Of a stretch of DNA of 64,000 nt, positions 12,954 to 20,653 are shown in pieces. Origin of the DNA: Gammaproteobacteria bacterium (GTDB lineage: Bacteria; Pseudomonadota; Gammaproteobacteria; HTCC5015). Numbering within the stretch: position 1 is the first letter of the stretch; the number at the start of each line of letters is the position of its first letter. The notes under the pieces were generated by a model. It saw only the letters and a program-made list of their open reading frames with translations, was not told the DNA's origin and did no database searches. The stretch covers positions 186,001-250,000 of the forward strand of contig JACDDA010000001.1 of assembly GCA_013817245.1 (NCBI GenBank). Reading direction: 5' to 3'. A program made the position numbers and the translations under genes.

Positions 12954-12977
12954 AGATGAGCACTGGGAAAGTACTGC

Positions 12978-13062
12978 AGCTTCCCTCCGCCAGCATAAAC
13001 TGGTTCAGGTTCAAAGGGTTTGAGTCTCAGCCCGCTCCGTAAACGGCGGGGCACCCCTAGCT
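12978..13062 (-). promoter_or_regulatory. TPP riboswitch (THI element)
   Basis: The minus strand carries the conserved THI-box blocks in order: AGGGGTGC, a variable stem, GGGCTGAGA, ACCCTTTGAACCTGA, a short P3-like stem, and GGCGGAGGGAAG. It lies about 75 bp upstream of thiC. Binding of thiamine pyrophosphate should favour the ribosome-site-masking fold. Confidence 0.96.
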
Positions 13063-13228
13063 TGTAGCGTGCTCAGGGTAGGTAATTTACCTGCGCAATG
13101 CAAGGTTAATTCAATCTAAAGGATCCGCTTGCGCAGCCGCAAAACTGTCCATGGATAAGCATATGTCGACGATGTCTAGTGAATCGAACGGCACATGTGT
13201 TGTTAAATAAAAGCACAGGGAATTGTCT

Positions 13229-18651: not shown

Positions 18652-19212
18652 ATGAAAAAATTAATCATGTGGAATGTAATTACTCTTGATGGATACTTCG
18701 AGGGTGAAAAGAATTGGGACTTAAGCTTTCATGAGCTTGCCTGGGGCAAGGAGCTTGAAGATTTAAGCAATGAACAATTACAAACAGCCGACATGCTTGT
18801 TTTTGGCGAAACAACTTACAAGGGCATGGCCGATTATTGGACAAAAGCGGTAGGAACAGCCGAAGGAATAACTGCGGAGTATATGAATAAAATCTCCAAG
18901 GTCGTTTGTTCACCGACACTTGAGAGTGCGGATTGGAACAATACCATCATCGTAAGAGACGCTATTGCGGAACTACCAAAGCTGAAACAGCAAGGAAATG
19001 GAAATATGTTCGTTTTTGGAAGCGGCATTCTTTCGGAATCGCTCATGAAAGCAAATCTTTTTGACGAATACCGACTTTGTGTCGCACCTGTATTTCTTGG
19101 TAAAGGCCGGTATCTTTTCAATCTTGGATTAAACTATCAAAAACTGAAATTGCTTGAAGCGAGACAGCTTTCCTCTGGCGGAGTTATATTAAGATACGCT
19201 CCAATCGAATAA
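18652..19212 (+). CDS. Dihydrofolate reductase-like (RibD C-terminal) protein
   Basis: A 186-residue protein beginning 'MKKLIMWNVITLDGYFEG', the N-terminal strand of the DHFR/RibD-C fold. Later blocks are 'DMLVFGETTYKGMADYW', 'KVVCSPTLESADWNNT', 'MFVFGSGILSESL' and 'FLGKGRYLF', typical of the YyaP/DHFR-related family. It probably binds NADPH, but the substrate is unknown. It lies 22 bp after waaA without a clear ribosome site and is followed by the repeat region. The position beside repeats and outside the LPS pathway suggests it was inserted, although codon usage is not clearly different by eye. Confidence 0.85.
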   Translation: MKKLIMWNVITLDGYFEGEKNWDLSFHELAWGKELEDLSNEQLQTADMLVFGETTYKGMADYWTKAVGTAEGITAEYMNKISKVVCSPTLESADWNNTIIVRDAIAELPKLKQQGNGNMFVFGSGILSESLMKANLFDEYRLCVAPVFLGKGRYLFNLGLNYQKLKLLEARQLSSGGVILRYAPIE

Positions 19213-19238
19213 CAGCTCGACTCCTGAAATGTATAAGC

Positions 19239-19390
19239 GCAGAAGCGTTTCGCTCGTCGCTACGCGAATTAGCGAGTAACTTTGATTGCCAGGGATGACA
19301 TGAATGCAGATTTTGCAGGAGCAAAAATTCGCTGATCGCCAAGGATGGCGTGAATGCAGATTTTGCAGGAGCAAAAATCTGCGGTCGTAA
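19239..19390 (+). repeat. Dispersed repeat units with AGGA-loop hairpins
   Basis: A unit begins GCAGAAGCGTTTCGCTCGTC and runs through a GCCAGGGATGAC segment to a hairpin with arms GCAGATTTTGC and GCAAAAAT around an AGGA loop (19317-19320). A second, shorter unit (19332-19390) repeats the latter half: CGCCA-AGGA-TGGCG at 19337-19350, and the long AGGA hairpin at 19356-19382. Further copies lie at 19406-19510 and, inverted, at about 20203-20311. No gene is supported here; several overlapping frames read through the repeats. Confidence 0.85.
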
Positions 19391-19401
19391 CATTTTTTAT
19401 T

Positions 19402-19582
19402 AAAAGCAGAAGCGTTTCGCTCGTCGCTACCCGACTACAGCGAGTAACTTTTGATCGCCATGGATGGCGTGATTGCAGATTTTGCAGGAGCAAAAATCTG
19501 CGGTCGTAACAAAAAGTCACCAACGCCGCTCTCTTGCATCCCTGCAATCGCGGCATTCGAACATCCTGTTCATCAAATACTC
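19402..19582 (+). repeat. Left arm of 180-bp inverted repeat
   Basis: The reverse complement of this arm reappears at 20136-20315 with few differences. It holds one repeat unit (from GCAGAAGCG at 19406), hairpins CGCCA-TGGA-TGGCG (19456-19469) and the AGGA hairpin (19475-19501), then AACAAAAAGTCACCAACGCC and two hairpins whose loops read TCCC (19534-19547) and TCC (19559-19571), i.e. GGGA and GGA on the minus strand. Confidence 0.9.
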
Positions 19583-20135
19583 GCCCGAATGTTGTGCACT
19601 TGAATGGAATACGATTCCATTCAAGTATTCCCTCGCCGTGTTTAATGGCTAACGCGTCGCCTCAACGCAACATCGTGTTGCGATCGGCTCACATGAACAT
19701 CCCTGTTCATGTGTCGCTACCCCTTAAACACTTCTCGGCACACCATAACGGGCATTATCCCTTCGTTTAACATTTAAGTTAAATAAGAACGCATGGGCTT
19801 AATTAAAATGTAGCCTGGATGGAGCCCGTAGTAACGGGCGAAATCCGGGAAGGCTTTTTACAATTCACCCCGGATTGCGCCGAATATATTCGGCTTCATC
19901 CGGGCTACGTTACTTTCCATTCCTTAAAACACTACTTTGCTTTAATTCATTTTTCATCCAGAACAAAGCAAATGCCCCTATGGCTCGCCGAGTGTTTGAG
20001 ATGTTGTCGGGAAAAACAAACAGGAGGTTTGTTTTAGTCACGCCGCGACAGGGAGGTCGCGTCAGGACGACCCGTAACAACAGATCAAACATAAGGAAGC
20101 TGCGCGTAATATTTACGCGCAGCGAGACATCAGGG
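19583..20135. repeat. Hairpin-rich spacer between inverted arms
   Basis: No protein gene is supported in these 553 bp. Perfect or near-perfect palindromes follow one another: 19599-19625 (12-bp arms, loop ACG), 19666-19682 (loop TCG), 19690-19713 (10-bp arms CACATGAACA / TGTTCATGTG, loop TCCC), the GTAG element at 19810-19908, 20013-20035 (arms AAAACAAAC / GTTTGTTTT, loop AGGAG), 20044-20061 (CGCGAC / GTCGCG, loop AGGGAG) and 20099-20123 (11-bp arms, loop TAT). Confidence 0.8.
19810..19908. repeat. GTAG-type palindromic element (REP-like, cloverleaf-folding)
   Basis: Outer arms GTAGCCTGGATGGAG and CTTCATCCGGGCTAC pair at 13 of 15 positions. Inside are GCCCGT/ACGGGC around AGTA and the 16-bp perfect palindrome GCCGAATATATTCGGC. 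GTAG-starting repeats of this kind resemble the REP elements mobilised by TnpA-REP transposases in gammaproteobacteria. No transposase gene is present in the window. Confidence 0.7.
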
Positions 20136-20315
20136 GAGTATTTGATGAACAGGATGTTCGAATGCCGCGATTGCAGGGATGCAAGAGAGCGGCGTTGGTG
20201 ACTTTTTGTTACGACAAGCAGATTTTTGCTCCTGCAAAATCTGCATTCATCCATCCCTGGCAATCAAAGTTACTCGCTGTAGTCGCGTAGCGACGAACGA
20301 AATGCTTCTGCTTTA
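20136..20315 (-). repeat. Right arm of 180-bp inverted repeat
   Basis: Inverted counterpart of 19402-19582. On the plus strand it contains GAACA-GGA-TGTTC (20147-20159) and TTGCA-GGGA-TGCAA (20171-20184), then the inverted long hairpin with loop TCCT (20219-20245) and the inverted GCAGAAGC end at about 20304-20311. Differences from the left arm are a few substitutions and small indels. Confidence 0.9.
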
Positions 20316-20389
20316 TAAGAATTCAAGGGTAGCGTCCCGTTATTTTATCAAATAAGTTTACTCTATTGATTCTTAAAAGCAGTCTCCCT

Positions 20390-20653
20390 TTATATTCTAA
20401 ATTTAGGCTCTCCGTATTTTGCCAATAGTGCATTAATTTTATTAGTATCATTTATTAAATTGTGGCGTGATTCATCCACATTTAAAGAAGAAGGTACTCC
20501 AAGCACTCCCAAGATAACACGGCGCTTAACAAATAATACTCCGCCCCGTGGTTTTGCATCTTCTTTTTGTTTGCCAGAGTCCAATCGATAACCACCAATT
20601 ACCCAACCCGACTCTGTTAAATATTTAATTTCCCACTCATCACTCGCAGCCAT
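20390..20653 (-). CDS. Hypothetical protein, 87 aa
   Basis: I do not recognise this protein. It is soluble, with 'WEIKYLTESGWVIGGYRLDSG' near the N-terminus and a basic, hydrophobic middle (VKRRVILGVLGVPSS). The start is credible: on the minus strand GGAG stands six bases before the ATG. It lies between the repeat region and a lipoprotein gene on the same strand, and ends about 75 bp from the inverted repeat. An AT-rich hairpin with a T-run separates it from the lipoprotein gene upstream. Confidence 0.6.
   Translation of the reverse strand: MAASDEWEIKYLTESGWVIGGYRLDSGKQKEDAKPRGGVLFVKRRVILGVLGVPSSLNVDESRHNLINDTNKINALLAKYGEPKFRI

Follow-up and report, generated by a model that had tools for sequence, protein, structure and literature searches.

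CsrA-sequestering RNAs and intergenic repeats

Metabolism, motility, biofilm formation and virulence are under the global control of CsrA, whose antagonists are usually pictured as a small set of dedicated sRNA genes. Among these, CsrB/CsrC and RsmX/Y/Z present many GGA-loop hairpins fitting the CsrA consensus. This consensus was determined by SELEX as RUACARGGAUGU, located in a loop (PMC7652899), and the high-affinity CsrA/RsmE site corresponds to the apical hexaloop CANGGANG (PMC4894983). Another structured RNA, the TwoAYGGAY motif (Weinberg 2010, PMC2864571), was later proposed, on account of its AYGGAY motif, to be a CsrA-sequestering RNA (Gardner and Eldai 2014, PMC4333381). An mRNA-derived RNA that titrates RsmA is exemplified by RsmU of Xanthomonas (PMC7694677), which is not presented as a mobile repeat. 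In the literature searched here, no paper was found tying CsrA sites to dispersed repeats. A role of TwoAYGGAY as a CsrA ligand was suggested in 2014; its occurrence as one half of a dispersed element with inverted repeats appears to be new.

Such an element was identified in the window, that is, the whole stretch of 64,000 nucleotides of gammaproteobacterial DNA analysed in this work. Its resemblance to TwoAYGGAY comprises an enclosing stem that holds two hairpins with AYGGAY loops, a significant covariance-model match, and an overlapping gammaproteobacterial range. However, TwoAYGGAY was described as a single RNA motif, whereas here it makes up half of an inverted-repeat element, occurs in multicopy divergent pairs, and is accompanied by extra GGA-hairpin modules nested in the element arms. 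Likewise, the many GGA-loop hairpins fitting the CsrA consensus recall CsrB/CsrC and RsmX/Y/Z, but those RNAs come from one to few dedicated and regulated sRNA genes, and the structure reported here is repeated at about 18 scattered loci and lacks a recognisable promoter. With REP/BIME sequences it shares the intergenic palindromes, the alternating orientation, and the location mostly at gene 3′ ends, differing from them in its much larger size (about 0.56-1.1 kb), far fewer copies, multi-stem fold, and specific ANGGA loops.

Architecture of the element

The element is a palindromic structure of ~1.1 kb placed in the intergenic region between two convergent genes of the ORF list (18652-19212 on the plus strand and 20390-20653 on the minus strand), and the repeat search revealed it to be a long imperfect inverted repeat. 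From the outside to the inside, it is composed of a terminal inverted repeat (ITR; GTTTCGCTCGTCGC...), arm modules with two GGA hairpins apiece, two outward-facing cores, and a variable centre. The basic element measures ~565 bp between ITR ends, and the ~1.1 kb of the window copy results from arm duplications and a central insert. The hairpins are not independent of each other, since the repeat search resolved them into a small number of modules present as direct and inverted duplicates. The features are as follows, with the supporting repeats (D, direct; I, inverted) or searches in brackets.

19236..20318, no strand: whole element, long inverted arms around two divergent cores (repeat search, ORFs, genome-wide copies)
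19239..19275, no strand: left terminal inverted repeat, outer copy, GTTTCGCTCGTCGCTACGCGA... (D2/I3 repeats; boundaries aligned with other copies)
19283..19382, plus: arm module b, two tandem copies with GGA on the plus strand, hairpins 19311-19326, 19337-19350 and 19361-19376 of the GCC(A/T)(A/G)GGATGGC type and the TTTTGC-AGGA-GCAAAA type, first copy degenerate (D1 repeats)
19403..19451, no strand: left terminal inverted repeat, inner copy (I2 repeat; ITR search)
19452..19501, plus: arm module b, third copy, hairpins CGCCATGGATGGCG and TTTTGCAGGAGCAAAA at 19456-19469 and 19480-19495 (D1)
19503..19580, minus: arm module a, left, hairpins TTGCAGGGATGCAA and GAACAGGATGTTC with GGA on the minus strand, 98% complementary to the right copy (I1, 19503-19588/20130-20215)
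19585..19752, minus: left core, outward-facing TwoAYGGAY module and enclosing stem, with hp1 CACATGAACAGGGATGTTCATGTG (19690-19713), hp2 CGCAACACGATGTTGCG (19666-19682; CGA instead of GGA in the window copy) and the non-GGA hairpin hp3 (19598-19626) (Rfam RF01731; covariation in 17 copies)
19809..19910, no strand: variable centre, a separate palindromic REP-like repeat, GCCTGGATGGAGCCCG...CGGGCTACG, also given as GCCTGGATGGAGCCCG...TCCGGGCTACG (I8 palindrome)
19982..20131, plus: right core, outward-facing TwoAYGGAY module and enclosing stem, with hp1 AAAACAAACAGGAGGTTTGTTTT (20013-20035), hp2 CGCGACAGGGAGGTCGCG (20044-20061) and hp3 GCTGCGCG... (20099-20123) (Rfam RF01731; covariation in 13 copies)
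20132..20210, plus: arm module a, right, hairpins GAACAGGATGTTC (20147-20159) and TTGCAGGGATGCAA (20171-20184) (I1)
20218..20264, minus: arm module b, right, hairpin TTTTGC-AGGA-GCAAAA (20224-20239) and degenerate TGCCAGGGATGG, with GGA on the minus strand, directed inwards (I4-I7)
20266..20318, no strand: right terminal inverted repeat, TACTCGCTGTAGTCGCGTAGCGACGAACGAAATGCTT... (I2/I3; ITR search; boundary alignment)

The REP-like centre found no match in the other copies and is unrelated to the element; palindromes of this type are common in gammaproteobacteria. A coding role was rejected, the ORFs at 19269-19556, 19875-20201 and 19910-20263 resembling chance ORFs on inverted repeats.

A previous sequence-only reading had reported a cluster of hairpins with GGA loops at 19239-20260, and all twelve hairpins that it named were found in place. 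On the plus strand, the loops were AGGA (19317, 19342, 19367, 19486), TGGA (19461), AGGAG (20022), AGGGAG (20050), GGA (20152) and GGGA (20176), and TCC-type loops, with GGA on the minus strand, were present in the hairpins 19534-19547, 19559-19571 and 19690-19713, the last including the minus-strand sequence ACAGGGATGT at 19697-19706, which had been read correctly. An additional minus-strand GGA hairpin was observed at 20224-20239, and the element runs slightly further than the proposed extent, to about 20318. When perfect stems of at least 5 pairs with loops of 3-8 bases were counted, GGA or TCC occupied the loops of 13 of the 21 hairpins in 19220-20330 and of 14 among the 384 hairpins of the window outside this region (Fisher p = 3e-12), while dinucleotide shuffles of the element contained a mean of 0.4 such hairpins and never more than 2. 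In addition, 12 occurrences of the CsrA-type motif CA(N)GGANG were counted in the element, versus 19 in the remaining 62.9 kb, where no 1.1 kb stretch contained more than 2.

Each core was then assigned by its match to the TwoAYGGAY model RF01731. The left core scored 44.1 bits (19641-19719, minus strand), above the cut-off of 43, and the right core scored 39.2 bits (19993-20110, plus strand; E=2.6e-4), under that cut-off. The source genome presented 30 matches, 21 of which exceed the cut-off. The cores have the two A-Y-GGA-Y-type hairpins in an enclosing stem that characterise the family, and this arrangement is backed by covariation, with two departures: the second loop base is free (N, not Y), and hp2 sometimes has CGA.

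Conservation of the fold and of the GGA loops

The 30 half-elements of the source genome (17 left and 13 right) were aligned, resulting in consensus folds of 56 pairs for the left half and 55 for the right, in which 98.3% and 95.8% of the cells, respectively, were paired. Column pairs in which both bases had changed and pairing was kept numbered 15 on the left and 12 on the right, far above slid controls. As far as aligned sequences can tell, this covariation shows a selected single-strand fold, be it of RNA or of single-stranded DNA. A test for selection at the RNA level, by G-U versus A-C mismatches, gave about 37 against 29 columns, so that the pairing could also be kept as single-stranded DNA.

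The core loops retained GGA in 57 of 60 cases, corresponding to 17/17 for left hp1, 14/17 for left hp2, and 13/13 for both right hp1 (shifted by one base in one of them) and right hp2; in the remaining 3 left hp2 loops, GGA was replaced by CGA. The loop bases flanking GGA vary, and the loop of the left non-GGA hairpin, hp3, varies at every position.

Copies in the source genome and evidence of mobility

About 18 element loci were found in the 2.27 Mb source genome, the 30 TwoAYGGAY matches being mostly arranged as divergent minus/plus pairs. The window site is one copy of a dispersed inverted-repeat element and not a single sRNA gene. A search by the ITR alone recovered nearly identical loci, with ITRs at both ends in most copies and a typical length of ~565 bp, plus one solo terminal repeat without a TwoAYGGAY core (G000:C1:149840-149885), which is perhaps the scar of a lost element. 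Some copies (L033, L038, L040, L042 and others) carry the end sequence TTTCTTTGGTTACTTTCTTGTCGCGACAAGAAAGTAACCGCCCGCCGG where the ITR would usually stand, in certain cases at a single end, as though they were recombinants of two related element types. Based on ORF gene calls, 11 of the 18 copies are placed between convergent genes and only 1 between divergent genes, while convergent arrangements accounted for 3 of 24 gene pairs in a background consisting of this one window (p = 0.002). The element centre, where divergent promoters would sit, is poorly conserved among copies. No TwoAYGGAY match was found in three other genomes of the same order, all of the same family.

Different states of the related element were observed at one orthologous site in Guyparkeria species, the intergenic region between dapC and dapD (gene names according to our own reading of the flanking proteins). 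The element was present there in one orientation in G240, G375, G379, G372, G143 and G377, inverted in G376 and G316, deprived of its interior with the outer ends left in G378, and absent in G373, so the element flips and decays in place. The dapC-dapD copies conserved CANGGANG in 16/16 hp1 loops and GGA in 14/16 hp2 loops, and the two motifs are spaced by 28 nt, as also observed in the right core of the window copy (20021, 20049). Moreover, entire stem blocks had been exchanged among the orthologous copies, an indication of recombination between elements.

These features bring the element close to MITEs and to the repeats R0, R2, R178 and R200 of P. fluorescens SBW25 (PMC2718517), which are also short, non-coding, dispersed and intergenic, several of them with inverted repeats. 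The SBW25 repeats (101-320 bp, PMC2718517), compared by description, could include relatives of the element. As a MITE would, the element is a short non-coding repeat with terminal inverted repeats dispersed over ~18 loci, and an empty site in a relative, a further MITE trait, was found in G373 for the related Guyparkeria element, not for the window's own copy, and is compatible with either absence of insertion or precise loss. It departs from MITEs and from the SBW25 repeats in its conserved CsrA-type sites and in that inspection of the element ends revealed no consistent target-site duplication, nor did any ITR pair in the source genome enclose a transposase-sized insert, as expected for an autonomous partner. 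Taken as a whole, the dispersed element is probably mobile or was formerly so.

Relatives in other gammaproteobacteria

TwoAYGGAY matches were found in 23 of 370 gammaproteobacterial genomes, and, in a phylum sample, in 40 of 398 genomes, 39 of which belonged to Gammaproteobacteria. Several unrelated families presented multicopy, divergent pairs with comparable hairpin-bearing ITRs, and Guyparkeria, Halothiobacillus and, apparently, Pseudomonas were among the gammaproteobacteria with more than one copy. Further copies were recruited with a pattern of hp2 alone, its key base left open, so that the hp1 loop remained unselected. By this pattern, carriers were Guyparkeria, Halothiobacillus, an ectothiorhodospiracean, Oceanococcus, a Chromatiales MAG, and Hydrocarboniphaga, and the few matches in other phyla either had no neighbouring hairpin or were chance-like. 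Some further carriers are apparently Pseudomonas, judging by partial matches of the Pseudomonas-like relatives to one Pseudomonas antarctica plasmid and one Pseudomonas phage record; neither the window element nor that of G214 was matched in the plasmid search.

In 53 foreign copies, hp1 took the form C-[A-N-G-G-A-Y]-G on 14 distinct stems. The closing C-G pair, the first A and the GG were conserved in 53/53 and the last A in 52/53, while the N position was free (T31 G9 A8 C5). The 63 matches of the hp2 pattern had GGA in 31, CGA in 31, A in one (a non-element match), and T in none. This GGA/CGA split means that only one site per module is strictly conserved, and a position alternating between G and C in this way does not look like the product of random decay.

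Proposed titration of CsrA and alternative explanations

The hp1 loop of the element is, by its sequence, a match to the published high-affinity CsrA/RsmE hexaloop, the free N included, and the element also presents CANGGANG / ACARGGAUGU in an apical hairpin loop. That the loops resemble CsrA/RsmA sites, as put forward by the sequence-only reading, is well supported, considering the RF01731 match, the exact CANGGANG hexaloop across many stems and genera, and the csrA gene encoded in the source genome. In the product of this gene, L4 and R44, which we take to be residues important for RNA binding, are intact. The same reading had compared a transcript of the region to a CsrB/RsmZ-type sponge. 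The promoter signal of the element is not above that of shuffles (3 sigma-70-like sites versus 2.2), and a canonical CsrB/RsmZ sRNA gene was rejected, as no Csr-family Rfam match was found in the window and the best genome-wide score for RF00166 was 20.9 bits against a cut-off of 44.

A different organisation is proposed here, in which a mobile or formerly mobile element provides RNA copies, predicted to bind CsrA, that would jointly constitute a distributed titrator; we consider the chances of this reading to be about even. Each half of the element would encode an outward-facing TwoAYGGAY RNA module with paired GGA hairpins, and, as these halves point away from each other, transcription through the element would yield one module in the GGA sense whichever way it runs. 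Such transcripts could arise, for example, by read-through from the convergent genes flanking most copies. The module RNAs would bind CsrA dimers and together could form a distributed, orientation-independent sink tuning free CsrA; alternatively to a sink, they may represent CsrA-bound 3′ UTRs. This reading is favoured because the loop is that of the published site, csrA is present with L4/R44, the setting is convergent, and the halves are divergent. Points against it are the promoter signal no higher than in shuffles, the poorly conserved centre, the small difference between G-U and A-C columns, the frequent CGA in hp2 and a carrier in which csrA was not detected (G367, see below). In addition, a review indicated that very stable structure may hinder CsrA binding (PMC7652899), and the stems of the element are longer than those of most SELEX ligands.

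More broadly, it is conceivable, though with somewhat less than even probability, that these are widespread gammaproteobacterial mobile elements whose cargo is a conserved, predicted CsrA-binding RNA module. With dozens of sites per genome, they would make up a distributed CsrA sink, independent of orientation, and by spreading would set or rewire the Csr system. If multicopy mobile repeats do hold high-affinity CsrA sites, free CsrA would depend on transposon load, repeats long seen as intergenic clutter would join the regulatory network, and the orphan Rfam family TwoAYGGAY would gain a genomic identity.

The main rival explanation places the selection on DNA, with a transposase or recombinase reading the hairpins as single-stranded DNA and the GGA loops serving as contacts, so that RNA and CsrA would be irrelevant and the CsrA match coincidental. 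Single-stranded DNA hairpins are recognised by the enzyme at REP/RAYT and IS200/IS605 ends. The terminal inverted repeats, the insertion polymorphism and the inversion would all be expected from such a system, as would the terminal subhairpin GTTTCGC...GCGAAAC common to several genera, the covariation without clear strand asymmetry, and the complementarity between the loops of the two halves on one strand. However, this explanation, which we regard as having perhaps one chance in four, does not account for a conserved loop that reproduces the exact CsrA/RsmE specificity with its free N, nor for the lack of conservation in the adjacent non-GGA hairpin loop, and in the source genome no ITR copies surround a transposase-sized insert.

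It is improbable that the element is a passive repeat whose sole function is spreading and whose GGA loops are alike through recency or gene conversion. The block-wise stem switching between orthologous copies does point to exchange between copies, and, like many neutral repeats, the elements keep away from promoters, but GGA persisted through changes in the neighbouring loop bases and in many stems, both within the genome and across families, and pairing was kept by compensatory changes.

Least likely of all is a bidirectional 3′-end element whose hairpins would serve as terminators or as protection for transcripts from convergent genes, with GGA being incidental. The preference for convergent over divergent gene pairs fits it, but terminator-like sites (2 versus a mean of 1.5) showed no excess over shuffles, which also led to the rejection of an intrinsic terminator role, and the ANGGA loops would be left unexplained.

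Returning to the proposed titration of CsrA, it had been suggested that copy number across species be compared with the presence of csrA. The comparison was made, and csrA was found in 22 of 23 carriers and in 324 of 370 genomes overall, which leaves the comparison no power. One carrier, G367, rated 100% complete and with one TwoAYGGAY match, was a genome in which csrA was not detected. Elsewhere in the window, a TPP riboswitch aptamer was identified at 12965-13068 on the minus strand, with a score of 63.5 bits, well above the cut-off.
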